Part shown: piece by piece, positions 2,572-57,125 of the stretch | Numbering within the stretch: the stretch's first letter is position 1 | Layout of the letters: every line of letters begins with the position of its first letter | Source of the DNA: Pontederia crassipes | Taxonomy: Eukaryota; Streptophyta; Magnoliopsida; Commelinales; Pontederiaceae | Length of the DNA stretch: 64,000 nt | Reading direction: 5' to 3' | Assembly: GCA_030549335.1 (NCBI GenBank) | Contig: CM060194.1 | Location: 64,136,547 to 64,200,546 of the forward strand | The notes under the pieces: model-generated | Told to the model about the DNA's origin: nothing | Databases searched by the model: none | Seen by the model: only the letters and a program-made list of their open reading frames with translations | Translations under genes and position numbers: made by a program

Positions 2572-3137
2572 AAAATCTTATAAACTCTTATAGTCTTTAT
2601 ATTATTCTATATGAGTATGTATGGCCCTTCACTCTTTATTGTGTACTATAAAAAGCTTGTAGGATTTTAAATATTTTATTTAGCTAATATATTTGTCATT
2701 CCCGTTTCAAAAAATATATTTGTCATTGAGAATGAAATTAGTACACCTTTAGTCATTTTTTATTCTCTTGTTATTTCTCTAACTTAATAAACCTAATTCT
2801 TGATAGCTACTCAGCACTTATTAATTGTAAGTGAGTATTTATTTCATTACTTTATATTTATCTCATATTAATGTTTATGATATATCGATAATAAATATGT
2901 GCATAATATTGTATTGTGATTGCATAATGATTTTATAATCAAATTTGTTTGGTACATAGATTTTACGAGTTCATGATACACTTTTATGACATGAATTTAT
3001 GGGACAAGAAACACGTCCATATAAATTCCTGAACTTGACAACCTTGGGTGGCTTGACATTGTTCAATCTGTCTTCCTCAGCCTGGTTTTAGCTTATAGCA
3101 TTGCAGCACATTACTTTAATTTTTTCATGTGATAAAT
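2571..3137. other. AT-rich spacer, no gene seen
   Basis: No coding similarity, RNA gene or repeat structure was recognised between the two SINEs. Confidence 0.5.
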
Positions 3138-3312
3138 AACTCCGCCTATGTTTTATAGCCGATCCCAAGCCCGGATAAAGGGAGGGTTGTGTTAGGCCCC
3201 GACAGCCAGCGTAAAACCTTGTCGAATCTCATGAACATGTATCAACGAAGGCGTCGTATGATCCATGTAGCCGACCCCACCTAATGGGATAAGGCTTTGT
3301 TGTTGTTGTTGT
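3138..3312 (+). mobile_element. Au-like SINE, near full length
   Basis: Same consensus as the copy at 1056, with a 3-bp deletion (AAAGGGAGGG in place of AAAGGAGGAGGG). A 9-bp repeat, ATGTGATAA, lies at 3127-3135 and 3325-3333. The right copy is about 12 bp beyond the tail, so it may or may not be the target duplication. Confidence 0.85.
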
Positions 3313-3333
3313 ATAGGCCAAACTATGTGATAA

Positions 3334-3984: not shown

Positions 3985-4188
3985 GGAGGAAAAGGAAGGA
4001 ACTCCGCCTATGTTTTATAGCCAGTCCCAAGCCCGGATAAAGGAGGAGGGTTGTGTTAGGCCCCGACAGCCAGCGTAAAACCCTGTCGAATCTCATGAAC
4101 ATGGATCAACGAAGCGTCGTATGATCCATGTAGCCGACCCCACCTAGTGGGATAAGGCTTTGTTGTTGTTGGAGGAGGAAAAAGAAGG
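3985..4188 (+). mobile_element. Au-like SINE with 15-bp target duplication
   Basis: The SINE body is 4000-4173. It is flanked by GGAGGAAAAGGAAGG (3985-3999) and GGAGGAAAAAGAAGG (4174-4188), which differ at one base. This is the clearest full insertion of the family in the window and suggests a fairly recent event. Confidence 0.9.
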
Positions 4189-5449: not shown

Positions 5450-8400
5450 CAAAAGTATATGTAACAGGTTTCCTATCCCGAAGAGATCGGCCTGACGTAA
5501 GCCCATCAGCTGTTAAATAGCTGTCTAGAAGAAGTGCTTCTCTGTGTTGCTTTTTCAACAGCCTCTCTTTCTTCTGCTTCAATAAAAGCATCAATGACAT
5601 TTGATTGCATGAATGGCTTATAATATCCAACCACTAATGTGGGTTGTATAAATGACAGTTTGATTAAGAAAATGAATTTGACCAGAATCCATTACCTTGT
5701 GATTTTTTTCAATATCTGGCAGAAAATCCATCTTTAACTTCTTCCCAAGCGAAGCCTCTGTTCTATTTTTACTCGTAAAAAGTTTCTCCTGCAAAGGGTA
5801 AATGTAAATATAAAGAAAAAGTGTAAAACATTAAATAGTGACAAACTAGAGGGTATGACCAACGATTGAATCATCATCTTTCTCCACATGCATGAAGAAT
5901 TTCAATTGAAATTCTTGTTCAAAATACCAAGATTCTTTTTTGAAGGGCAAAAGGATATGATTGCCAATTGTAGTATTCATACAGCTATGTCATTGGACAA
6001 GCTCAACATTCTTAAAATACAATTTTAGGGAATATATAACTAACCCTGTAACTTTTCCAGTTACATAAAGCAACAACTTTTTTATATAACTCATAACAAG
6101 AGTTCAAGACCACTTGAAATACAATTAAGATCTTTTTTCTTCAAATTATAATTAAGCTAAATGAAATTCAGGTTCCTAATAGTGCACAATAAAAAATATG
6201 AATCACCACTTATACCAGCTTATTAAATAGGAACATCAAGATTAAAGAACTTACTGCAACATCTTGGAATTCATCCAGATTTGTTGCAACTGTTTCCCAC
6301 TGGTAAGATACAAGTGGATTGACAATAGATCCTTTTGCTTTCGCCTTCTTTATTTCTACACGTCTAATTTCACGATATAATCGATGGCCAATGATAGGAT
6401 CATCTTCATACCTATCAATAGATGGACTCAGAGAATAATATAAACATTACAAAAGAATGCTCAGAGATACTTGAATAACTTCCAAATTCAAAAAGTGACC
6501 ATGCTGAATTCAAGTTACCAGTATGAAATCCCCTGAGAGTCGCCTCCAATTCGTTCTTTCCGAAACAATGGAAGTTGAATACCACGTTTTAGGCAATCAT
6601 CAATGAAATTCCGAATATCCTCTTGCTGCAAAAAGTCAAATCTTGATGCCAACTCTTTTGTTTATACCGACTAATGCACAAATGAATATCATATTCATGA
6701 GATCAAAGAAAAGGCCAGTTAAAAATGATGAAAAAAAGGACTGAAGCACTTCAAGTTTTTTTTTAATTAAAGTGCTTATCTATTAAACACTTCAAGTTTG
6801 ACGACCTAGTAAGTTAACCAACATAATAAATTTGGGTTGCTAGAGGGGGGATCAATGTGTCTAGGGATACTAGCTCCTAATTATTTCAGACGAGGTTGTA
6901 GAGTATTAAAGATAATCTCTATCCCAATGGTGGGATACAGGGCCTGAACTTAAAGCTACTAGCTCCCTCCTTCCTCAACTCAGATCTCAGCCCATTAACT
7001 ACCATCAATAGTTCTCTTTCAAAAAAATCCAATTGGCACTTGCCAAGATAACAGGAATGGATTCAAACTGACAATAACTCAATTCAAATGCCTTTTTTAG
7101 AGGATCATAATTGAAATGTTAAATATAGGAATAAAAAATTATGAAATTTCAGTCAAGATGGCTACAAAGTCATTGACATCTAAGAGAAACTAACATAAAC
7201 ACATATGGACAGTGGGAAACAGACATGACATAGATTTGTGATCAAGATGCCTAGTCAAGCCTCTTATTAGACTATAATAAAGAACCAGCATGAGTGTCAG
7301 AAGTTGATTGATGACGAGATTACAGGTAGAAAATTAAGAAAGCATCAACAGAATTGTAATAATGTTTGAAACATAATTGAAGTATTGCTTTCGATGAACT
7401 AACAGATGTTCATATCGGTAGTATATGATGTTAACTTGAGAACTCTACTGAGAGCGACAATCCAGATGAAAAACTGTCCCGTTTAAGCTATCGCATGGCA
7501 AATAAATATCCCAGCATGATCCGGAAAAAGAATGCATAAAAGAAAAAATTATGTCCAAATCAAAATGAAAACGTCCGTTTAAAATGCAACCCAGACTTTC
7601 ATTATCAAACAGAATTAATACCTCGACACGAATGTCACATATAGCCTTTAGGATCCGTACACGAATTCCAGGTTCAAGATTTTTGTATGTTTCAACCTCC
7701 GCCCTGATAAATTAAAAGGGCAAACAATGTTAACACATTGAAATTTTGAGACATTTCAAATTTAAAATGATTCAAAGACTCACCCGTGGGAAGCAACGAT
7801 AGGAATTTCCCCTTCAGCAACCTGCAAGTAATATACTGTTGTTAAACTGCTCCATGTGGTACCAACCAATGTTGTCAAACTCATAAAACGGAGTCAACAC
7901 GGAAAGTCTGGGTAAACACGTAAAACGTGAGATCGTAACACGACTCGTCCGATTCTACTGAAATCATATTTTCAATTAAATTAATATTGATTCTACTTGA
8001 ACCTAATTTACCTATAAATTAATTATTCAATATGATTTAGAAAATCTAATAATAATTAATGATTAAGCATCTATGATTTAATAAGTTATAATAATTAATT
8101 TAAAAAGTTATAATAATTAATAAATTAGCAATACATTACATGAAAGAGCAGAAAAAAAAAGCATGGAAAAATATGAACCAAAAATAAAATAAAGAGACTG
8201 CATTCTCTCTCCTCCATGAGATTACATGAGTCTTTTCTTGCTGTCAAATCAGAGAAAAAAAAGGAGACTGTATCCTCTATACTCCCACAGAGAGTCTTCT
8301 GGAAATCCCACAGGGAGTCTTCTGGAAACCCAAAAATTAAAAGGCTACCGAGCAGAGTAGGCAGAAAAAAAGGAAAAAGACTGCATTTCTGGTCACAAAC

Positions 8401-15440: not shown

Positions 15441-15583
15441 TTTAGCCGGTCCCAAGCTCGGATAAAGAAGGAGAGTTGTGTTAGGCCTCGACAGCCAACG
15501 TAAAACCCTATTAAATTTTATGAATATGGATTAAACCATGCAGCCGACCCCATCTATTGGGATAAGACTTTATTGTTGTTGTA
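15441..15583 (+). mobile_element. Diverged, 5'-truncated Au-like SINE
   Basis: TAGCCGGTCCCAAGCTCGG through CCATCTATTGGGATAAGACTTTATTGTTG matches the SINE consensus, with many changes and an internal deletion near 15520-15540. ATTTAGCC occurs at both edges. It is older than the copies at 1-4 kb. Confidence 0.8.
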
Positions 15584-16904
15584 GTATTTAGCCAACTTAA
15601 TAATTGTGAAGAATCTAAACCAGGATACTGGATCTCAAATAGAACTCATACCAACATTGGATAAATAGTGACAAAACAAGTTATCACTTTTCTAATAAAA
15701 ATAATAATAAGAATTGTGAGGAACAAAAAGTGATCATATATATACGTCATGGAAGGGTCGTGATTCGACAATTCATCCCAATTCACACAGAGGCACTTGT
15801 GAGGCACTTGTTAACATCTTGTCGATGCTTAACATGACTTTTTGTCCCAAGAAAACCTCAGTTGACAACTTGGGCACCTTTCTTCTCTGCAAGATCAAAT
15901 CCGCTATCATTATTGACCAAACCACAAAGAAAGATTTCCACAATGCCCCATTAGAGATTATAACTTTTGTCCCTGATATCCCTTTTATGAAATAAAAATC
16001 CAGGCATACATTCAACTGATAGAATAAAAAACTTTATCCCATTTTAGGATCTTAATTTAGACAAGTCCATCCTTGCTTTTGCATTTTGGTAATAATCATG
16101 TGTTACTTGAAATCAAGATCAGAAAACATAAAATTTTATATGTAGTCAATGGTGGTACTTCTGGCAGCGCTACCGGTAAGGGATGAGACCTATATCAACT
16201 TATGCTACCATGCAACTCCATCTCGACATATTGTAATTTAGTAAAAATAAAAGATGTTACAGATGTAGGGATAAGCTCAGTTCCTTTGGAGAATGAACCT
16301 TTTAAAACATTGATATGTATAAACAACAGTCATTCGTGCACGGAAAACTTTAGTCAAATGATGTATATCACCATTTTCAATAATAAGCAACGAGTACACA
16401 CATATTGGTAAGCAAGTGAAACCAATAAGAACGACAGAATCCCTTTTTTTAGAAGGTAGGGCAAAATCCTATGTTACGCGGAAGCTGGTACAACTACGCA
16501 TTTTGTAATGAATTCAGTATATAACAAGAATATATAAATGTGCAAGCTTCATATGAAATAATTAACTCAGAATACAGAATATATACTCGTTGCCAATTCA
16601 AGGTTGCAGGTTTTGATATTATATGGGGTTGTCAAGGAACATAGAAAATAGATATTAGCTTCTCAACTTACAATATTCCTTGAACCCATCAACATTTAAC
16701 TTGAAATATTGAATTGTTGTATGAATATATCAATCAGAAGCAGCGTGTGACATAAAAGAAATCAGCTACTTCTAACCCTGGATTATTTGTACGGTTCTCT
16801 GAAATGATAAATACAATCTGATAGGCAAATAGGTGATATATCCAGTTAGATGTTCCCACAGCTCATAGTACACTTAGATGCAGCTGAATTCATCGATCAT
16901 CAAC
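15584..16904. other. Spacer and 3' flank of the glucanase gene
   Basis: No recognisable gene. A minus-strand open frame of 80 codons at 15773-16015 has no recognised domain. The part next to 16905 should hold the 3' UTR of the glucanase. Confidence 0.4.
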
Positions 16905-19900
16905 TCATGCTGCCAAAGCAAAAATTAGAAGCCCTATACAAGCAGTGAGAACCATAAAATATGGTGAAGCATAACTCGGAGCACCAATATCCTGTGATTG
17001 TAACAACAGAAGTGAGGAAGTCAATTCAAACCTGTAGTAACTAAAACAAAGGAACAGCTAAAGGAATGTTACAACAAGAAGGAGCGATAAAGGAATCATG
17101 GTTTTCAAGTAATTCATCCGTATTTCACCAATAAAATTTTAATTCAGCCACATATGAAAAACCAATGTATCTAAGCTAATTTCCAATCAGCTTTATTGAA
17201 ATAGATTGCAAGAAATATACCTAAGAGAAGGCCTTAGATCATTGCAAACTAACTTTATTTGCTGCTTTCTCTTTTATTCTTGATGTTGCATTAGGCTTTG
17301 ACACAAATTTGCAGTAAGTCCAATATTCCATTAGAGTCGAAACAACTTTCAACAGTTCTTTTTAAGTCCCATTCTAGCATAGATTAACTTAAGTTCGTTC
17401 AATGGATGCCGAATCAAATATCAAAGATCACTATACCCAAAGGAGAAAGATGTGGAAAACCACAAATAAGATGATCTAAGTTTGCAAGGTGATGTTTTGG
17501 ATCCAAAAGTAACAACGATTCCGGCTTTTGACTGGACTGGGTAAAGAAAGAGAGCCAGGATTAGATTTCAAAGACAAGTTCACATTCCAGAAAAGAATAG
17601 GATAAAAAAATATCATGCCTACCCATCCTTTTGGAACTGCACAATGTAAGAGCATGACATGAAAACAAATGTAATAGCTATCTACATATTCCCACATTCC
17701 TTACAGATTTGGGAAAATATATTTATCTCCCTGTGGTCTAATGAGTATAATATCCTTCCAAGTGCTGCAGATGCCAAAAATGTCAAATTTATGGGGAAGT
17801 ACCATTTTGCAAACACTTGTAAAACATCTCTTTTTATCTACTAATTCCTTAGACATCTCATTTGTGGCTATAACCTTAATAAACTAATCCCTCAGATTAT
17901 ATTAGTAGTCATATGTGCAGCGGTATTAGTAAATTGCCCTAATTGGGATTATTTCGTTGCTTTAAAGTAGTAGTCAAATGCAAATAACTTAGATCCTACT
18001 CACAGTGCCAATCCTTGGAACTGAGAAATTCATTTAACAATATGAAACACATTCTGAATTGTGGAGGTTTACTTTCTGATTATAAGAATTGCACTAGCAT
18101 ATCATAAAGACAGACTGCAGATATGCCAGGAGTACGTGAAGGGATGGGAGGAAAGAAAGGGCGGAATACATTTCAAGCAATTCCAAGTTGACCAAAATAA
18201 TAGAACAAAAGTAATCCTACAAAATTTTAAATTCCAAGAGAATTCAAATTTTGGCCAGAGGAAGTTATCAAATTTTTCTTTTTGTTTGAGAAGGTAACCT
18301 CTAATGAGAAGTAGAGAAAATCATACTATTTAATATTTACCATACGAGACAAGAGAAGACAGATGGTTTTACATGCTTAACATAAGTTTCTATGGGACTT
18401 CATGAGTTTAAAAATGACAAGAAACAAAACAAAAATCAAAACCATCTGTCCCTTAACATGGTTAAAAATTGACAGCAGGAATAAATATTGATCAATGAAG
18501 TGCTTAAATCTCACTGATACTCAAAGAGATATTATAAACAATTATAAGTTGTGAATTGAACTTTTTCAAGGAATCCTGAATTACCATAAAGGACAACAGG
18601 ATAAAGAAAGGAAGCACCAAGTTATTTATTACCTTTAGAGACAAGAGAGATCGAGATGCCTTAGAGGATTTTATACCAGTGAAGCCAATATCATATGAGA
18701 TGCTCCCATCGGCCTTGAATAGCCCATAGTGTTTTTCAGAGCTTGGACCCGTCTTCTGATATTCATTAAATAACGCAAACACATATGCCTTGACTGCAGT
18801 CTTGGGCCTGCGTGGAGTTCCTTTCTTCTTAAGAAGTCGCTTGCGCAAATTAAAATTGTAAGTCCTCGCATTCTCCACAGTAGCTCCTGCTTCATCATCA
18901 TCACCTGCAGAAGCCCAACCTGTTTCCGAAACTCTGACTTCCATTTTGTCATAGCCGGCTGCTTCCAATGCAGCATAAGCAGCATCAACTTGAGCATCAA
19001 ACATGTTGTCATAGTGCAAACTGGTGTTTGCATCATAAATCCCAGAATTTGACTTAAAAAGAGCATAATTGATGTCGATATTCTCAGGATCACTTTTATA
19101 AGCCAGAAAAGGATAAGCATTGATATAGAAAGGAGCATTTGTCTGCGAAAAGAATTTCAAGATGGGATTCATGTATACAAAGACATCTTCCTTGAAAACA
19201 CAAGCAGATGGAGGATATGACGTGGCAAATACAGCTTCTGAATGTGCTGTTGAGACCTCAATCTGATCTGCTAATTGAGTCCTATTGAGAGCACTGTAGA
19301 CATTCTTGATTGCACCAAGTAGAGCTTCTGCAAGTCCCTGATCCGTGCCTCCTAATACTTCGTTCCCAACAGCAATCCCACGAATACGTGTCTCAGGCAG
19401 AAATGGTTGCACATTCTCCTTAATCCAGTCCATTGCACGGACTTCATTTGCACTTACATCTTTTACATATTCATTAGGAAGACCCACAATCAAATCAAGC
19501 CCAGAACCTTTGAATGCTTTCAGCACACTATGATCTGCGTCATATATCCTAACATTCTTTATCTTAGCTGCTTTGAGAAGAGTTACAACACTTTCGGGTG
19601 GAGGAATATTATCCGCTATCCGTCCATAGTTGATCCCATAGGTTCCAGTAAATGCCTGAGCTGTCATTGGTCCTATCACAATAAATTACAAAGTTATGAT
19701 CATAGGCAAAGCCAAATAAATACACCTTGGCACTTTTGGCATCTCACAAAATGAAAAGAGATTGAACGAGCCCTTTAATATGTATCAATCTTTTGTTAAC
19801 CAGATTGAAGGGAATGAAAGAGTTTCAAATCTCTGTTTTAAGAAAATTACAACAATTCCAAAACTTAACAACAAATTAATGAAAATGAATTTGACCAAAT

Positions 19901-23296: not shown

Positions 23297-23444
<148 letters not shown>

Positions 23445-30595: not shown

Positions 30596-31501
30596 CCATT
30601 CTTATTATTTATCTTTTTGTTATTTTTTTTTTTTTGCATTTTACGTGTCTTCTTTCTTATACTCTCTCTCTCTCTCTTATTCATTATTATCATTCTCTAC
30701 GTTTTCTCCTTTGTATCATAATAGATAGATCAGTTATTTTTTCTTCAAATTTACTTGACCATCCAAACGTGGACGCTCCAAAGGACGTCAATTTTTTCAA
30801 AGCTAGATTTAAAAGGAGGACGTCTGTCAACCTCCACAGCAAACTCACTCTCCCTTCCTCCATCCTCCGACCACAGCACTCATCTCATTGGGGCAGCAGA
30901 GCAGGAACATCTCCATGGTGACTCCCGGTCTAAAAGGCATGAGCATACCACACATGTGTCCCTGCCCAGCCAACATTGTAACAATTGATATGAAGTCATC
31001 AGCGGTGCCCTTTCAAGCTCTCCCTGACGTTTCTCCGAAGCTAGGCGCCGAGCTATGGAGAAAGAGCAAGCACGACTGTAGCATCCTGAGACTTGGCCCC
31101 GTCACGTGGCGCGACCTCCTGTCGTGCACGACTTGACTCTTTACTTCTTTCTCTCTTTCTTTGACTCGTTTGTTGACTTGAATAGTCAGCACAAGGAAAA
31201 TGCAAAGCGGAAGACTAAATGAATAGAATAATACAACAATAAAAAGGAAAAATGCGGAAGCTAAATAGATATTGGTACATCCACAAGGCATATAAAAATT
31301 CATGCCATAAGTACAACTCTATAGACCTCATCTAAACTCTAGATAACCATGTGCATACACCACCAAGTTGTAGTCATCGCACACACATCAATAGCTCGCG
31401 ATCGTCATCTAATACTTGTGGGGATAACACAGGAGAGCAAGTTCAACCATTAGCATAAAGCTAAGTATAAGTTCATATAAATTATTAGTTCTGTCAGAAT
31501 A

Positions 31502-31681
31502 CAACAACAACAATAAAGTCTTATCCCACTAGGTGGGGTCGGCTACATGGATCATATGACGTCATTATTCGTTAATCCATGTTCATAAGATTCGACAGAA
31601 TTTTACACTGACTGTCAGGGCCTAACACAACCCTCCTCCTTTATCCGGGCTTATGACCGGCTATAAAACATAGGCGGAGTT
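31502..31681 (-). mobile_element. Au-like SINE nested in LTR 1
   Basis: The full-length SINE is in reverse orientation: (CAA)n tail at 31502, then TTATCCCACTAGG, and GGCGGAGTT at the other end. The flank beside the tail is TAGTTCTGTCAGAATA (31486-31501). The flank beside the 5' end is the inverse of this, so the insertion site was palindromic and a direct target duplication is not visible. Confidence 0.9.
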
Positions 31682-31731
31682 ATATTCTGACAGAACTATT
31701 CTAGTGGTAGAATAGTTCTGTCAGAATATAA
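31680..31731. repeat. Perfect 24-bp inverted repeat with 4-bp loop
   Basis: The left arm 31680-31703 and right arm 31708-31731 are exact reverse complements around the loop GTGG. The core TTCTGTCAGAATA also occurs at 31488-31501 on the other side of the SINE, giving three copies of one motif around the insertion. Confidence 0.9.
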
Positions 31732-35126: not shown

Positions 35127-35680
35127 TTAGGCTCCCTTTGGCATAGGACTAAGGTGAAAATATAGCTTTTAGGCCCCGTTTGGTTGGCGAATATGTCTTC
35201 AGGAATAGCGTCATTTAACCCGGTGAATATCTTCTATTCCGCCACACACATGTCGATAACGCGGTATCCTATTCTCGCTCGCCGTTTGGTTTGTCGTGAA
35301 TATCGAAAGCTGAAAGGACATCTTTTACCCCTGTGCCACTATTTCCATGCCTTGTCCAGGTGTCATCTCCAAGCTTGCGCTCCACTTCTCGGCGGTCTAC
35401 TGAAGCGAGATAGAGCGGAGGTGGTGGAGGTAGGGCATGTTCAGTAGTTCTTTTTCAGGTGAGACGCTAACAACCACCTCAGCTTTTTAGGGACGAATTG
35501 TGTTACCTTTTCGTCATTGTGATGTCTCCGTTTAGTTCGTCTGGTTTCATGTGTGTTACTACTCGCGCAATGATGGTCTGGAGTGCGTTGGCTTTTCTGA
35601 GTGATGTCCACTCGATACTTCTTTAAGCAGGGTAGTTCGACGATGATGTATCCGTTCACGGAGACGCAGGATGCGCCGGA

Positions 35681-36033
35681 GTGCATTGTGAAGACGTCTG
35701 CGCTTTGAGGACGTCGTTGACTGATACAAATTCGGGGAGGCGATTTTGGGGATGTCCCCATTATGATGTCGATAACATTATCCTCTCGCTCCGTTGGTCG
35801 TATGTTTTCATGTACTAATGCTTTTTGCTTCAACAAACAGCCTCTCTTCATGGTGCTTGTGGCTTCTTCAAATGTGTGATCCGCCTATAGAGCATCGTGG
35901 TGCAAAGGTGATAGAAAAGGTGCTGGAGAAGTGTGACAAGTTGGAAGACTACATTAGTCGGCTGAAGCGAGAGAGAGTTGTGTATTTTGTCGTCGGGGTA
36001 TTGTTGACCTTGATCTTAACTAAGTTCGTATAA
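35681..36033 (+). pseudogene. GRF-type zinc-finger protein with C-terminal membrane segment (decayed)
   Basis: Two parts are visible. The first (from 35681) reads CALRTSLTDTNSGRRFWGCP, the core of the plant GRF zinc finger. After a possible short intron ending TTCAACAAACAG near 35841, the second part has GACGFFK, then DPPIEHRGAKVIEKVLEKCD and KLEDYISRLKRER (coiled coil), then a hydrophobic tail, VVYFVVGVLLTLILTKFV, that could anchor the protein in a membrane. The stop is at 36031-36033. A one-base frame break falls between GFFK and DPP, and the N-terminal zinc ligands look disturbed. It lies wholly inside the Harbinger element, opposite in strand to the transposase. Function is unknown; whether it is a standard passenger of this family is an inference to test. 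Confidence 0.7.
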
Positions 36034-36899
36034 CATTCAAAGTTGTGGTACCTGTTGCCCATTTTGAGGTCATTCGTGTTGTATGACAAAGTTGGGCATT
36101 ACTAGTGTGAAGTCTGTCTTTTGGTGCTTTCTAACATCTTTATTATGTTGACATAAAGACGAATGGGTTGCCTTTTGTATGAACTACATTCCATCCAAGT
36201 TATGCACTTTCCATTGTTATGCAAATGTTCTTTACTACTGCTTCTTGATACTTTTAAATTGATGAATTATCATATGCAATTGTGGACATAGTACGTTGAG
36301 TACACTCAGTTGGATGAATGAGGGCGCGCATTTGTGTTTGCTAGCGAATGTGCGAAGGCATCTTATATGCTTCTGGTGCATAGTTGAGCATGTAATTAAG
36401 CATACAATCACATTAACAGAGAATCCAAAATTGCGAATTAAGCATACGTTGCTTTATTACATATAGGAGTTGTCAATTAAGCATACGAATGTCAACCTAA
36501 GCATAAGATGCTTTGTTACAAACAATTAGGCATAAGAATGTCAATAAAGCACAAGTTGCTTCATTACAAACAGCGTGTTCATTATTACATTCGTAAAGGC
36601 AAGCACCTAAACTGCGAAGCAAATGCAATCCATAACAGAAGGCTAGCACGCGAACCAAGTACCACCGAATTCCATTGTCGTGTTCCTGCACAGCGATACA
36701 TAATTGTGATGTGAGTAAGATGGTGATTGACACTTATACAAGTTTAATAATAAATTACTTAAGTTAAAATAGGTCTTGAAGTTGTCAAAATGTATTACCT
36801 GCATACATGAAGTACACTCGACACTTGCACCCCATCGAGAATGGCACATCACATATCATGAGCTGCAAAGATTAAACAGACGTTACGTATCATACTCTT

Positions 36900-38288
36900 A
36901 CAAGTCACAGGATCAATATTTTCTTTTTCCTGAATCTTCTTACCTCGACGATTCAGGTGAGCATTCCAAAGTTGTACCGTAATGTCACTTCGAAGCTGCT
37001 CACCCCTTCTGCTCTCTTCAGTTCCCATATTCACATTTCCAATAGATTCCTTGAGATTGACATTGTTCGCATCGTCTAGTCCGGTTGTAGCCATGGGCCG
37101 GTAAAGTATTTGTTGCTTCCTTGGTAACACTTGATGAAATTGTGTAGGATGCAACAGGCAAGAACTATGCGTTCCTGTGTCCCTATCGAAAAATGAGTCG
37201 TTGTTCGTAGAATACTGAAACACGACTTTAAAATATCGAATGTCTTCTCAATACAATTTCGAAGTTGCACATGTATATGATTGTCTAACTCCTTTGGATG
37301 CTCATATGATCTCTGTCGATTATTGTACTCTGACAACTGATATTTCACACCTCTATAAGGAGCTAAGAACTTCGTGTTGGCATATCCTGAGTCGACAAGG
37401 AAGAATTTACCTACAAGTGTAACTTGCAAATTAACGTCATTTCCATCATTGACCAAGCAATGATTAGTTAGACACCATACCTTCGGGAACATGAAACACA
37501 ACATTTTCAACGCACCAATGCAGCACTCTCATATTAGCGGCGGAGCCCTCCCAACTAGTGCAGACGTAGAGAAAAGAATGGTCAAAGGACGTTGTTGTCA
37601 TCATATTTTGAGATATGAATCCCTTATGATTTCTATAACGAGTCTGGTCGATTTTACGGACCATCGCAGGTACATGAGTACCATCCACCGCTCCAAGTGC
37701 ATTCTACAAAACATATCAAATTGCCTTGATGAAAATGTGAAATAGAGAATAAATGGCCTCAAACCATAAAAATGTATCACTTACCTTAAAAAAAGGGAAG
37801 AACTGGCCACTACGAAGAATTCGTGGATGCACGTCCGCAAGTCCATTCGGAAGGGCTATTAACTCCTTAGAAAGAGAGCATATCCATTCGAGCACAATAT
37901 TAAAATAATGAGTATAGTCTGCCTGAATGCTGGAATTCCTCCGCCAAGTTCCTATTAGACATGTTGTGTCCCAAACAATATAAAAAGAAGGCTAGCTGCT
38001 CGCATGAACTGACATTGTGAGTGTTGTGTCTCTTGATGTGAGTAGTTCCTCCAACTTAAGAAACATTCTAGGAGACTTTCTGTACATGTAGTAACACCTC
38101 TGAGAATGGCCTTTTAGTATGTCTAAGATGAGTTGATGGCCAGTGAATGGGCGAGTCCTGTACGGGACCCTCTCAATTGTGTCCCGAATGCGTACTTCCA
38201 TCATACCAGTAGTCGTGATGATTCTTATAATATCTCCATGTATTCTCTCCTCCTCGATCAAGAGTTGAATGAACATGCGTTTACTCAT
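36900..38288 (-). pseudogene. PIF/Harbinger DDE transposase (ORF2)
   Basis: Exon a is 37785-38288, exon b 37481-37703 and exon c from 37410 down to about 37076 or beyond. They are joined by good GT-AG introns. The order is as in the plant Harbinger (DDE_Tnp_4) family: N-terminal region (HSQRCYYMYRKSPRMFLKLE), AEEFQHSGR, first Asp in AVDGTHVPAM, RYRNHKGFISQN, second Asp in LVDSGYAN, FLAPYRGV, and Glu in RNCIEKTFDILK, then ACCILHNFI. All three catalytic residues are present. There is a frame change near 38020-38030, before EQLAFFLYCLGHN, and another near 37090, before DDANNVNLKE. The protein is therefore probably broken unless spliced in an unusual way. Confidence 0.88.
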
Positions 38289-38889
38289 CTATAATGATGG
38301 ATGAAAACATGTAAAAACTATAACGATGATATAATGGATACAACTATAGAGAGACACTAAATAATGCAAAGTATGTTGCCCTACAAATATGCTAAGAAAA
38401 ACATGTAAGAACTGATTCGCGATAGTAGAGAGTCATTTTGAAAAGGCAACACAAAGGGTTCCACAAAAAGTTGTATCCAATGTACCAAGAACATAACCAG
38501 CACAACATATTGGTAAAATGCCTACATCCCCCTAACAAAAGAAAGGCACGGTGGAGCAGCTACTAACAAAATCTTTAGGGGGAACACGAAGCTCCCGTTG
38601 AGGTCAAACCACTGACTGATGGTGTATGGAAGTTGAATACCATTATAGTGCCGGAAGAAGGCCGTGCTGGAAGCTCAAGTCCCAATACACTCGCAGGAAT
38701 GAAGGAACTGCAAACAGAAAAAGGTGTGGCAGTTGTACAAAATAGGGACGGGGATAAGACAAAGGGAGTGGGAAAAGTTGTGTTCAAAGTAAATGACAAA
38801 CCAAATATGTTCGGTGGGGTGGCCGCGAATGGTGCTCTAAACACGCCAATGGGTATTGAGTGAGAGGCGCCAACACTCAAAGTCGAGCT

Positions 38890-40045
38890 CATGCACTCTA
38901 AGAAGTCTGAAGACTGCGCAGTTGGAGCTCTCTTCCTTCTATACGCGTCGACCTATTCCAAAAGTCATGGCTCCAACATGTCATCCTCGCAGGTCATGAA
39001 GGCCCAACAATTACTTTCATCCTTGAATGCTTCCATCATAGCCATCTTGAATTCAATGTTGCAATCTGTAACCTTCTAATGCAATTTGGCCCAGCATTTG
39101 GCCCTTGTGTATGGGTTGGCATCCTTCTCCCGTTTTAGTGCCTCATCCAACAACACGAGACTCTTCTTCCCTTGTTGTGTTAATTCCTTCGTCAGTTCAA
39201 CAGTTTCATTGTTGTTAGCCCTACCCTTACGTGCTTTCTTTTCGTGGCCACTGATTCTAGCCCTTTTTGCCGCAGCTGGGGGAGGGGACACACCGCCGCT
39301 GAAGGGATCATCAAACACAAGTGCATCTGATGGACTATTGTACGTGCCTTCGTTGCCTGTACCCCCACCTTTGCCTCGTTGCTGGTCGGCCCTTGGAAGA
39401 ACTACAAGTCATCGAAAGTTATGTCAATATCATCCGCGACTAGATCCTCAAAATGAGCATTGTCTTCGGCGGGCTTATCGGACATTGTAGTCGCAAATGC
39501 TCGGACCCCTGTGGTAGTGTTAGTCGAGAACATAAATTACAGTTCTTCGAACAACAGGAAGGGCTTATCCTTAATCCTCGTATACTCCTTGTTTGCCTAT
39601 GCAATGAAAAAGATTTTCGTCAGTAAAGAATGAAAACATTGGGCTGATGTAACACCGATGTGTAATTACTTACCAATATGACCTCATCCCACATTTTGTC
39701 CTCGCTGGGTGTAGGAACTTTTTCTCATGATCCTAACCCCAATCACTTTTGTTAAGCAGGCCTTGGTATAACTGGTAGGTCTTCTTCAAATTCTTCATTC
39801 TATTCTTCAGATTTTTCATATCGTAGCCCTTTTTCGTTGTTTTATTGAACCTTAGAACCATGCGCTTCCAACTGTCTGTTGAGAAGACACCGATTTTCTT
39901 ATGATTCCCATCAAGGTGTTCTACTTTCATAAGACCGACTAGAATTTCATCGACATCGTCATTCCAGTTGGATAGTCGCTTCTTTCTTAATGTTCCATCT
40001 TTGTTTCTAGGCGCAGTTTCTTGAGATATTTGTGTACAAACTGCT
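38890..40045 (-). pseudogene. Harbinger ORF1, Myb/SANT-like protein (decayed)
   Basis: The first part, about 39674-40045, encodes a trihelix-like SANT domain: NWNDDVDEILVGLM, STDSWKRMVLRFNKTTKKGY, LKNRMKNLKKTYQLYQGLL. An in-frame TAG at 39733-39735 follows SDWG, and a frame change near 39720 precedes EDKMWDEVI. A donor at 39673 and an acceptor at 39597 bound an intron. The second exon (ANKEYTRIKDKPFLLFEEL, later KRARISGHEKKARKG and LDEALKREKDANPYTRAK) has further stops, including one near 39549. In Harbinger elements this partner binds DNA and helps move the transposase to the nucleus. This copy cannot make a full product. Confidence 0.8.
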
Positions 40046-40483
40046 TACATAATTCACGCATCGATAGAAGTATGATCAAAATAAGTAAAAATTACTTTGA
40101 TGTCAATCTAAACCTGCGGGAAATCCTACTAATGCTAGGTCTATTTACATGACGGAAAGTGTAATACAACGATTAATACTACCATAGCAGCGAAACAAGT
40201 TATTCATAATAACCATGGAATCCTTCTAATGCTAGCCATGACCGGCGGAAAAAGTGAAATGAATCATCATAACGATGTAGCAAAGTTGTGATCGTACCTT
40301 AGGCAAGAAGAGAGTTCTTCAAGGGGTCGACACAGCAAGAGGTCCGCAGATCTACGAAGATACACCCCCATTTGCGTACACCAGAGACATGCATAGGACA
40401 ACATTGAGCAAAGGAGTTAAGCCGAAAAGAAGCACGCAACCAAAATGTAGTAGTCGACATGAGGGGCAAAAATAAGTATGCAA

Positions 40484-40857
40484 AACTTACCACGCGATGT
40501 CGCCAGAGCCTTAGTCGTTCGACGCCGATCCTCTAGTGTCGGCGAATCCCTAGTCCTTCGACGCCGATCCACATGTTCTTGAGATGATCCCTTCACGATG
40601 ATTATCTGCTGTACACGGATGCCCTAAAAGGGGAGAAAATTGCGATCGAAGTATGCAACGAAAAAAATAAGTAGAGGACATGAACGAAAATGTGCAAAAC
40701 TTACCACGCAATATCGTCGAAAGCGCACGTGGCCGATCCTGCCCTATCGCCGGACGCCGATCCGCCGCTGCACGCCAAAGCCCTAGGAGGGGGAAAAGAT
40801 TGCGGTCGAATGTCGATGATGTCGATGAAGTCCACCGCTGCACGCCAAAGCCCTAGG
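40484..40857. repeat. Subterminal direct repeats at the Harbinger right end
   Basis: Three sets: AACTTACCACGC.AT.TCG at about 40484 and 40700; AGTC.TTCGACGCCGATCC at about 40513 and 40551; and a perfect 23-bp repeat (CCGCTGCACGCCAAAGCCC, then TAGG) at 40765-40787 and 40835-40857. They may be transposase or ORF1 binding sites. Confidence 0.6.
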
Positions 40858-41194
40858 CTGAAATCGATGATTCCATAGTGCGTGGACGTTTTTGCCCCAC
40901 GAATGAAATGGATTAACACATATTCGACTTCGTCGGCCGAATACCCCAACCCGAAAATAGGCAGCCGATAGGATTAAACGTGCATCGAAAGCAGCGCGGG
41001 CGATGTCGACGTTTATTCCTATTCCGCTCACTATTTGGCGAATTTTGATCGATTAACTTCTTATTCCGCACCTTACTCGCGAACCAAACGTGGCCTTAAT
41101 TCCAGAAGTTCATCCAAACCTAAAGATTAACTTGTGGGGCCCACATTTAATGATTAGAAAAAAGTGTTGGGTTTTGAATTCTCTATCTACTTGT

Positions 41195-42095: not shown

Positions 42096-42155
<60 letters not shown>

Positions 42156-53548: not shown

Positions 53549-55202
53549 CACTACTACTAGAAAAACGCGGATTACCGACGGTTCGAACCGTCGGTAATCA
53601 GCCCGAAAATCGTCGGTAACGTAATTACCGACGGTTTTTCAGTCGGAATCGATCCGTCGAAAAAACGCTCGTCGTAAACGGATTTGCGATGGTTGAAAAA
53701 ATTCGTCGAAAATATCGACGATTCTGACCGTCGGAACAGTCCTCGGCGGTTTCATCCGTCGAAATTTTCCGATGGTTGCAACCGCCGAAAAAGTCCCCGA
53801 CGGTTCGAATCGTCGATATTTCCGACGGTTACAACCGTCGAAAAAGGCCGGCGGTCCGAACCGTCGATATTTCTGATGGTTGCAACCGCCGGAAAAGGCC
53901 GGCGGTCCGAGCCGTCGAAATTTCCGACGGTTGCAACCGCCGAAAAAGGCCGGCGGTTCGAACCATCGTAACTTTTCGACGGTCGCAACTGTCGAAACTT
54001 TGGACGGGCGTCACAACCGTCGATCTTTTGATGGTCGTAACCGTCGCAAATAATTTTTTAAATATAAAAAAAAATTAGCGGCCGGATCCGGCCGCTGGAG
54101 GCCGAATCCGCCGCCAAGAGGCCGGATCCGGGCGCTGGAGGCCGGATCCGGCCGTCCGGGCGCTGGAGGCCGGAACCGGCCCGCCTGGCGGCCGCTGGAG
54201 ACCGGAACCTGGCGGCCGATCCGACAGCCTGGCGGCGGATCCGGCCGTGGCCGTTCGGCGTGGGAGGGTCGTCGGGGTCCGGCGCGCGGGAGAGGCCGAT
54301 CCGGTGCTCACGACCGGGAGAGAGAGAGAGGAGAGGAGGGAGAGAGAGAGGAGTGGAGGGAGGAGGGAGAGAGAAGAGGGAGGAGGGAAAATATATAAAG
54401 GAAAAAAGTGGAAAGAAAGCGGGAAAAAGGAAAAAAAAAGCGGGATAACGAAATTTTAATTACCGATGGTTTCGGCCGTCGAAAACATAAATATTAAATA
54501 TTTTTATTTTATTTAGTTATATATAATATTTATTTTTTATTTTACCGACGATTTGGACCGTCGCTAGTTATATTAATAAAATACTCTTATATATGATATT
54601 ATTATACATTTACCGATGGTTACGACCTTCGAAAATTGCGCTGGATTTTGCGACGGATGGATATCCGTCAGAAATATCGACGTTCCTAATCATCAAAAAA
54701 TTAAATAATAATATAATAAATTATATAATTAATTTTTTTTATTTCCGACGGTCGTGACCGTCGGAAAATCCGTCGAAAAAATTTAATAATAATATTAAAA
54801 ATATATAATTTAAATTTTTTTATTTCCGACGGTCGTAACCGTCAGAAAAGTCGTCGGAAATTGCGACGGATGGATATCCGTCGAAAATATCGACGTTCCT
54901 AATCGTCGAAAAATTAATAAAAAAATTTAATAATAATATTAAAAATATATAATTTAATTTTTTTATTTCCGACGGTCGTAACCGTCGGAAAAGTCGTCGG
55001 AAATTGCGATGGATGGATATCCGTCGAAAATATCGACGTTCCTAATCGTCAAAAAATTAAATAATAATATAAATTATTTCCGACGGTCATAACCGTCGAA
55101 AAATCCGTCGGAAACAGAACCGTCGAAAAATCCGTCGCAAATTACGACGGATTTAGAACCGTCGAAAATTATCCGTCGGAAAATCACGATTTTTTTGTAG
55201 TG
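53549..55202. mobile_element. Non-autonomous CACTA (En/Spm) element (1.65 kb)
   Basis: The left end is CACTACTACTAGAAAAAC and the reverse complement of the right end is CACTACAAAAAAATC. The interior is packed with dozens of short palindromic units of the type CCGACGGTT.NAACCGTCGG, as in CACTA subterminal arrays bound by the transposase. A GC-rich core (54078-54310) repeats GGCCGGATCCGGCCG and GGGCGCTGGAGG. The right part has three repeats of about 140 bp (GCGACGGATGGATATCCGTC near 54650, 54863 and 55007). A 3-bp target duplication is not evident (TTA left, CAC right). No transposase gene. Confidence 0.82.
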
Positions 55203-56560
55203 CACGTGGTGTATTTAATCTATGTTTTATTGAAGTTGCTTAAACTCCTTATAATACACGCATGCCATGGGGGCATATTTGTAATGTTCATATGATACAT
55301 GAGCCATGAGATCATCTTTGTAACCTTCAGATGATACACACATGCCATGAACTAAGTCATTTAAAATTACATTCAATACATGTACATGCATAGTGTTGCT
55401 GCTTACATAACTTTAGTGTCATTTATTTTTTCGATTGTACGTGGTGTCATTTAATTTTTATTCAAGTGAAGTTGTCTAACAAACTATATAACAATCATGA
55501 GATCATCTTTGTATACACACATGTCATGAGCTAGCTAGGTAATTTAAAATTGAACATGTATAGTGTTGCTGCTTACATGACTTTAGTGCCATTTTTTTTC
55601 GTTATACTTAGTGTCACTTAATTTATATTCGAGTGAAGTTTCCTAAAATCTCTATAATGGCCGTGTGATACATGCATGTCATGAGGTCTTTTATAATATT
55701 AATGCGATACACGAATATCATGATATCATCTTTGTAACAATACACACATGGCATAAGCTGTCATTTAAAATTACATGTAATACACACAATTTTGCCGCTT
55801 GCATGACTTTAGTGTTATTTATTTATTATTATACTTAATGTCATTTGACTTTTAACTTAGTGTCATTTAATTTTTATTCCAATGAACTTGCCTAAATTCT
55901 CTATATTAGTTGTGTGATACATGTATGCCATGAGGCCATCTTTATAATATTCATGTGATACATGTATGCCGGGAGATAATATTTGTTTTCGGATGATACA
56001 CGATGTCTTGAGCTAGGTAATTTAAAATTACATGCAATACACGCATAGTGTTGAACTTACATGACTTTAGTGTAATTTTTTCAGATATACTTAGTTTCAT
56101 TTAATTTCTATTCAACTGAAGTTGTCTAAAATCTCTGTAACGATTGTATGATACACGCATGCCATGAGGTCATATTTATAATATTCATGTGACACACATA
56201 AATCATGAGATCATCTTTGTAACGTTCGAATGGTACACATGCAATAAGCTAGGTCATTTAAAATTACGTGCAACATGCACAATTCTATTGCTTACATGAT
56301 TTTAGTGTCATTTACTTTTTCGGTTATACTTAGTGTCATTTAATTGAAGCTTCAATTTCTATAACGGTCGTGTGATTGTCACGTATGGGATCATCTTTGT
56401 AACGTTCGGAGATACACGCATGCCATGATGTCATTTCAAATTACGTGCAGTACACGCATAATCTTGTCACTTATACATGACTTTAATGTCATTTATTTTT
56501 TCCATTATAATTAACGTCATTTACTTTATATTCAATTGAAGTTGCCTAAAACACCTATAA
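55203..56560. repeat. Degenerate tandem array, about six units of 170-260 bp
   Basis: The phrase GCTTACATGACTTTAGTGTCATTT recurs with changes near 55392, 55563, 55790, 56050, 56286 and 56465. Between the copies, ACACGCATGCCATGAG, GATCATCTTTGTAAC and TAATTT.TATTCAA.TGAAGTTG also recur. Unequal spacing indicates an old array. Confidence 0.75.
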
Positions 56561-57125
56561 ATAGTGGAGTTCATTCTAAAATTTCATCATAGCAAACTCT
56601 GCCAAATGTGCAAGAGCACCCCAAAACCTTGTCTACTTTCTTCCTAGATCTTTTAGGATACTCTGGTATTCAACCTCGCCGTTTTCCCATAGGCCACAGA
56701 TCGGCTGCTATCAGCTAGTGGCCTCGATCTCGAGCATTTTGCATGTCCACCAAATGGTGCTGCAGGTCCTCCAAAAGGTGGCTTGTGCTCATGGACAAGA
56801 AGTGGAACACTTCTCTGTTGAACCCATTCACAAAAGTGGAATGAGGTTTCGAATACGAAGCTCATTTCCGAAGTTGTTCTATCCGCGAGAGCTGAATGCG
56901 TTATCGTGCTCAACGGTGCCGATTGCGCCGTGCTATCATTCAGCATTCTGAAGCATGAGAAGCGGACGATCACGAAGGTGATCGAATGAGATGTATCTTC
57001 TGCTTTGTCGATGCATTTTCTGTCTTTTATTAAACTTGTTGCAGTACTAGTTGTAATCCTCAGTGCTCTGTTTGCAGCGAAAACATATTGTCGATGGCCT
57101 TTTAGAGTATGATGTTTGCACAATT
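56560..57125 (+). other. Promoter-like start and unrecognised transcribed-looking segment
   Basis: CTATAAATAGTGGAGTTCATTC at about 56575 looks like a TATA box with a start region. The sequence that follows is less AT-rich to about 57120. No reading frame on either strand gives a known protein. A minus-strand frame of 156 codons (56653-57123) is probably chance. The matching copy at 51060-51530 shows this unit has been duplicated. Confidence 0.35.

Follow-up and report, generated by a model that had tools for sequence, protein, structure and literature searches.

A recurrent GRF zinc-ribbon gene under purifying selection in PIF/Harbinger elements of Pontederia crassipes

The window analysed here, that is, a stretch of 64,000 nucleotides from Pontederia crassipes (assembly GCA_030549335.1, contig CM060194.1, forward-strand positions 64,136,547-64,200,546), carries at positions 35172-41095 a PIF/Harbinger element (coordinates given without a locus name are window positions throughout) that holds, besides the genes expected of such elements, a third gene for a small GRF zinc-ribbon protein with a hydrophobic C-terminal tail. 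This GRF gene recurs in related elements of the same genome and is under purifying selection between element families, so that the original prediction, which had left open a captured host gene or a recurrent passenger and had taken recurrence to point to a role in the life cycle of the element, is supported; the nucleic-acid binding and membrane tethering that it offered as possible activities are what we, too, infer from the sequence. We tentatively favor the explanation that the element in the window is a decayed member of a PIF/Harbinger lineage with three genes, in which the GRF gene would be a selected accessory gene whose product may act as a membrane-tethering cofactor of the transposon life cycle. 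The recurrence of the gene across related elements, and also beside a second type of transposon, suggests that it helps elements survive or move.

The element and its genes are laid out in the window as follows:

35169..35171, no strand: left target-site duplication, TTA
35172..35193, plus strand: left terminal inverted repeat (TIR), GGCCCCGTTTGGTTGGCGAATA, 19/22 identical to the right one
35643 (approximate)..35767, plus strand: GRF exon 1, the zinc-ribbon half with the CxC and the NPGRRFW-GCPHY-like part; one single-base frame break
35768..35836, plus strand: GRF intron, placed by alignment
35837..36033, plus strand: GRF exon 2, with the CGFFKW part, linker/coil, hydrophobic tail and stop; one single-base frame break
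35977..36030, plus strand: C-terminal hydrophobic tail, VVYFVVGVLLTLILTKFV, tail-anchor-like
37076..37528, minus strand: 3' piece of the transposase (DDE_Tnp_4), holding the second D and the E
37464..37703, minus strand: middle piece of the transposase, with the first catalytic D (AVDGTH)
37716..38288, minus strand: presumed N-terminal pieces of the transposase, in the same frame, split by an in-frame stop; no Pfam match
39076..39408, minus strand: presumed downstream piece of the first open reading frame (ORF1); no Pfam match
39733..40044, minus strand: Myb/SANT-like DNA-binding domain of ORF1 (Myb_DNA-bind_3)
41074..41095, minus strand: right TIR, complement of GGCCCCGTTTGGTTGGCGAATA at 19/22 positions
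41096..41098, no strand: right target-site duplication, TTA

Several lines of evidence place this element in PIF/Harbinger, and they bear out the exact borders, the DDE transposase and the Myb/SANT ORF1 of the original prediction. The element is flanked on both ends by TTA, a 3-bp duplication of the TWA type, and is bounded by short TIRs (19/22 in the window, 18/18 in the relative L026); two minus-strand pieces match DDE_Tnp_4 in Pfam (3.5e-12 and 2.4e-4), and the Myb_DNA-bind_3 match reaches 6e-14. The catalytic D, D and E are readable in what we take to be the corresponding motifs, AVDGTH, VDSGY and NCIEKTFD. A pattern derived from both TIRs and allowing up to three mismatches finds in the window only the two sites to which it was fitted, and has zero occurrences across 100 shuffles. 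Local alignment of the two 201-bp element ends scored 18, not above chance (shuffles up to 21); hence, the similarity is limited to about the last 22 bp. Instead of the two-gene coding capacity usual for PIF/Harbinger we found a conserved third gene, and we retain the assignment because two-gene capacity is not a strict criterion. ORF1 and then the transposase are read from the right end on the minus strand, while the GRF gene is read convergently, on the plus strand, from near the left end, a layout that suggests a separate promoter near each end.

The window copy itself is decayed, as indicated by an in-frame stop in the transposase (37992-37994), by two single-base frame breaks in the GRF gene, each seen against those relatives whose sequence spans the site (13 of 13 at one and 12 of 13 at the other), and by a 3' splice region that is altered in the alignment with relatives. 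The plus-strand gene predicted near the left end is present; in this copy it is broken, and it consists of two exons.

To assess recurrence, we searched the genome from which the window derives (1.13 Gb, 43 contigs). Thirty loci were chosen by transposase similarity alone, namely 20 of the 21 best non-self matches (the tandem copy C14:52006915 was left out) and ten matches picked for divergence, and 24 of these 30 have the GRF gene: GRF exon matches were present in all 20 loci of the first set and the gene in four of the ten divergent ones, the other six (L033-L038) having none within 3.5 kb of the transposase on its 3' side. Twenty further loci, chosen for a nearby GRF match, are not part of this count. 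Two of the six L033-L038 transposase matches have frames of about 300 amino acids. None of the 13 copies of the window's own family has lost the gene entirely; five of them (L009, L011-L014) align without interruption from the left end of the element, or close to it, through the GRF gene. A one-off capture in the window copy is ruled out by the recurrence in these 13 same-family copies and 11 more loci, and confinement of the gene to the window's family by the diverged loci L022-L028, whose longer GRF matches show about 37-62% protein identity. In most loci of the first set the gene occupies the left-end position on the strand opposite to the transposase; most of GRF exon 2 is missing from L015, the left part of L016 is inverted, and in L017 an incomplete exon 1 in the normal orientation is accompanied by a fuller, inverted copy. 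The gene is enclosed within recognizable element ends in L026 (perfect 18-bp TIRs) and L028 (15/18), each with a TAA duplication; convincing TIRs were not found in the other five of the seven diverged loci tried, and target duplications were not clean in several other decayed copies.

The same arrangement emerged when the best-scored matches of separate searches with the transposase piece (best 150 of 993 candidates) and GRF exon 2 (best 150 of 965) were paired. A GRF match lies within 8 kb of 89/150 transposase matches, and in 87/150 it is on the opposite strand and on the 3' side, at 946-2948 bp (median 1582), compared to 0.3 expected by chance; reciprocally, 94/150 GRF matches have a transposase match within 10 kb. 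Since only the best-scored matches of each search entered the comparison, the 87/150 and 94/150 pairings are lower bounds. The share of transposase matches with a convergent GRF match goes from 23 of the best 25 down to 4 of the last 25. Four of the 56 GRF matches without a partner were looked at individually; two of these, L079 and L082, are Harbinger copies in which an internal deletion has removed most of the transposase but not GRF exon 2, and L080 and L081 are not so accounted for.

The GRF gene is under purifying selection between families. Ratios of nonsynonymous to synonymous substitution (dN/dS) were obtained by the Nei-Gojobori method for 41 loci, with the window copy, L015, L017 and L018 left out of the selection and distance counts and with pairs at 0.3<=dS<1.6 as the main set. 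The median dN/dS of the GRF frame was 0.254 (188 pairs), as opposed to 1.085 and 1.22 in the two shifted frames, and stops interrupted 10/3447 codons of the GRF frame vs. 293/3363 and 177/3363 of the shifted ones; the transposase exon had a median of 0.156 (104 pairs). Between four families, grouped by eye and restricted to transposase-selected loci (L032 and the 20 GRF-chosen loci were left out), the six GRF medians ranged from 0.123 to 0.387 and those of the shifted frames from 0.984 to 1.665. The check for purifying selection that the original prediction proposed thus came out in its favor, and a chance open reading frame is ruled out by the frame-specific constraint.

The gene also appears to have descended together with the transposase. 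GRF and transposase protein distances correlate (r 0.45; 0/2000 permutations as high), and in a tree of 50 transposase rows one branch (support 100/99) separates the 44 rows that have the GRF gene from the 6 that do not. The unbiased set for this tree is 24 vs. 6, because 20 of the 44 GRF rows had been chosen for having the gene. The root was set by midpoint and one gain cannot be told from one loss; that is, the absence of the gene from the six sister-clade loci fits either.

The two-exon structure of the gene was established by alignment with the 13 same-family copies. The intron of the relatives is 61-115 nt long and at the same site in the 22 loci compared, with GT and AG exactly at its borders, in phase 0, in 15/22 but not in the other 7. 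The protein has about 105-110 amino acids and consists of CxC...NPGRRFWGCPHY, CGFF(K/R)WxDP, a charged linker/coil, and a C-terminal hydrophobic stretch with a hydropathy of 1.5-2.7; in 36 of 39 frames, 0-3 residues lie between this stretch and the stop. The half-finger readable in the window (35636-35818) scores under the Pfam cut-off of 25.9 bits (E 0.0031, 18 bits), whereas the spliced proteins of four relatives are all above this cut-off of PF06839 (35.3-40.7 bits; 1.2e-8 to 2.5e-10). The nearest solved sequences are those of NEIL3 (1.8e-5 and 0.001), followed by an AP-site enzyme (5u6z, 0.21). On the best reading of its domain and tail, the protein would probably be a tail-anchored DNA-binding cofactor. 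No relatives of GRF exon 2 were found in viral and bacterial contigs, nor of the transposase piece in viral contigs.

GRF genes of this kind are also found beside a second, SWIM-type transposase. A search with GRF exon 1 (best 150 of 1602 candidates scored) gave 63 matches within 12 kb of a scored Harbinger transposase, 60 of them convergent, as well as 18/150 matches within 10 kb of a SWIM-type transposase, convergent in 18/18 (17 at 979-1965 bp and one at 8302); 69/150 were near neither type among the matches listed. At L084, for instance, a GRF gene (143-615 of that locus, plus strand) with the two-exon layout, a frame break and a hydrophobic tail faces a minus-strand frame (1576-2430) that matches SWIM (1.2e-5) and, weakly, a zinc knuckle, and that we take to be a Mutator-like transposase of FAR1/FHY3 type; that is, the second partner is apparently a SWIM-containing transposase of Mutator/FAR1 type. 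Among 136 scored matches to this transposase (of 2931 candidates), 54 have a match to L084 exon 2 (best 150 of 471 candidates) within 8 kb, and 53/136 have it in convergent orientation on the 3' side at 535-7948 bp (median 915), compared to 0.29 expected by chance; the share goes from 13 of the best 17 down to 1 of the last 17. The 150 L084-type exon-2 matches include 54 near a SWIM transposase and 0 within 8 kb of a scored Harbinger match. Together with the orientation counts, this separation indicates that the two unrelated transposase types each have their own GRF subgroup in the same convergent slot. In their exon-1 cores, L083 and L084 share 54-71% identity with six Harbinger genes, a divergence much like that of the Harbinger genes among themselves (54-82% identity).

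How might such a protein serve an element? The zinc ribbon may bind the single-stranded or forked DNA that arises when an element excises or is replicated, in the way that the GRF domain of NEIL3 binds single-stranded DNA, and the hydrophobic tail would hold the protein in the endoplasmic reticulum/nuclear envelope with the ribbon on the cytosolic/nucleoplasmic side. The N-terminus of a tail-anchored protein is cytosolic or nucleoplasmic, and it is because the ribbon would meet DNA on that side and the tail the membrane that we favor a membrane-tethering cofactor. In this capacity the protein could tie the DNA of the element, or its transposition complexes, to the nuclear periphery; alternatively, it could protect them against processing or silencing. 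By analogy with MuDR, the two ends of the element would each drive a transcription unit of their own.

Several observations weigh against this explanation. The GRF gene of the window is a pseudogene, and only 18/41 loci are free of gaps and stops across both exons. The pairs behind the dN/dS medians are related and thus non-independent, saturation affects 241/814 pairs, and the median of recent pairs (dS 0.05-0.2) is 0.498, although higher values in young pairs are expected if most copies decay after insertion. Copies lacking the gene, which the original prediction had named, together with insertion borders of the GRF region or a match to one host locus, as evidence against itself, do not occur among the 13 same-family copies; the six sister-clade loci L033-L038 show no GRF match within 3.5 kb on the 3' side of the transposase. 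Further, 61/150 transposase and 56/150 GRF matches have no partner among the matches listed. Given the latter two observations, a need for the GRF gene in every PIF-type element is not demonstrated. DNA binding by the GRF protein is argued from its domain family. With respect to the second transposon type, the spliced L084 protein scores 25.1 bits, just under the PF06839 cut-off, and the Mutator assignment is made from the SWIM match, the weak zinc knuckle (in a C-terminal part of 285 amino acids) and a presumed resemblance to FAR1. In addition, 82/136 SWIM transposase matches have no GRF exon-2 match within 8 kb, 96/150 L084-type GRF matches are near neither transposase among the matches listed, and the association is known from proximity and orientation.

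According to the main rival, the GRF protein counters silencing or regulates the element, its target being the chromatin of the element or the precursors of small RNAs and not the cut-and-paste reaction, in a role comparable to that of VANC of VANDAL or mudrB of MuDR. We regard this as possible, if doubtful. Two unrelated types of transposase are accompanied by GRF genes in the same convergent slot, which argues for it, since a host-facing role is easier to explain for a factor that is not tied to one transposase. A C-terminal membrane anchor, on the other hand, would be unusual for a chromatin factor, and the GRF and transposase distances correlate, although shared descent alone gives the same result.

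A broader version of the tethering hypothesis, which we consider rather unlikely as it stands, is that the tail-anchored GRF gene constitutes a mobile accessory module in at least two unrelated superfamilies of plant DNA transposons, recruited each time into the same convergent slot. Its protein would let elements keep their DNA intermediates, single-stranded or forked, at the nuclear envelope, a membrane-tethered step of transposition that the literature we found does not describe. Plant annotations list many small "GRF-type" membrane proteins as host genes; if the module exists, these would largely be transposon proteins. Apart from this hypothesis, a third gene that selection keeps across families and that has a parallel beside a second transposase type would mean an overlooked component, membrane-linked or anti-silencing, of plant cut-and-paste transposition, and the small GRF-type genes annotated in plants may belong to transposons.

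It is improbable that the gene regulates the element via convergent transcription or antisense RNA instead of via its protein; the convergent layout with both transposase types would fit such a mechanism, but the constraint is frame-specific and at the protein level. Very improbable, in our view, is a host-benefit gene, by which the element profits from supplying the plant with a useful small GRF membrane protein: the gene is under selection and GRF domains serve DNA repair proteins elsewhere (PMC9266487), but many copies are dead, and selection on one of many interchangeable copies should be weak. Least probable of all is that the element captured a host gene which merely travels along and brings it no advantage, because, while plant DNA transposons do carry transduplicated gene fragments (PMC2528002) and the window copy and many others are broken (the 18/41 intact loci above), position, strand, intron site and stop position are conserved, dN/dS between families is low, and 24/24 transposase-picked loci of the clade carry at least part of the gene.

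Elsewhere in the window, positions 53700-56600 hold arrayed short units whose motifs resemble CCGTCGGAAATT and which may be the subterminal repeats of a further DNA transposon, and a 393-codon minus-strand frame at 18504-19685 resembles a plant glycoside hydrolase family 17 (beta-1,3-glucanase) gene. There is a perfect (CT)n tract at 23301-23425 (125 bp) and a perfect (TA)n tract at 42097-42151 (55 bp), and scans of the window for tRNA and Rfam families found none. A dispersed repeat of about 160-185 bp is present in six copies that are 74-97% alike, one of them inverted:

1052-1239: dispersed repeat copy
2399-2559: dispersed repeat copy
3136-3314: dispersed repeat copy
4000-4174: dispersed repeat copy
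15443-15605: dispersed repeat copy
31480-31685: dispersed repeat copy

A third, selected GRF gene in PIF/Harbinger is not described in the literature that we found. No publication joining the GRF zinc finger with Harbinger was recovered in a literature of partial coverage, with Repbase and subscription papers outside it: in three papers where "GRF" and "Harbinger" both occur, the former denotes a program (PMC6913007) or a row in a table of transcription factors (PMC4076063, PMC6686938) in the text available from these sources. The accessible parts of PMC2213677, PMC6850418 and PMC4565680 mention no third or additional open reading frame and no GRF, and that of PMC2528002 mentions neither ORF3 nor GRF.

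Compared to known systems, the window lineage shares with PIF/Harbinger (PHIS) elements the TWA duplications, a short TIR starting with G, a DDE_Tnp_4 transposase and a Myb/SANT ORF1, and differs in its third, convergent and selected GRF gene with a hydrophobic tail, most candidate autonomous elements having two open reading frames according to the available text of PMC4482050. Four relatives of the GRF protein fall in the same domain family (PF06839) as the GRF zinc fingers of NEIL3 and APE2, the NEIL3 GRF, which binds single-stranded DNA (PMC9266487), being the nearest solved sequence. In those proteins, however, GRF is a domain of a repair enzyme, whereas here it is a stand-alone ribbon in a transposon-borne protein of about 105 amino acids with a hydrophobic tail. 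Accessory genes besides the transposase are also present in MuDR (mudrB, convergent from the other end) and VANDAL (VANC); a GRF domain with a hydrophobic tail makes the present protein a different one. Finally, FAR1/FHY3-type Mutator-like elements are likened to the window lineage by the multi-copy SWIM and zinc-knuckle frame that, in this genome, has a GRF gene in the same convergent slot; their transposase is unrelated to that of Harbinger, and their GRF genes form a separate subgroup.

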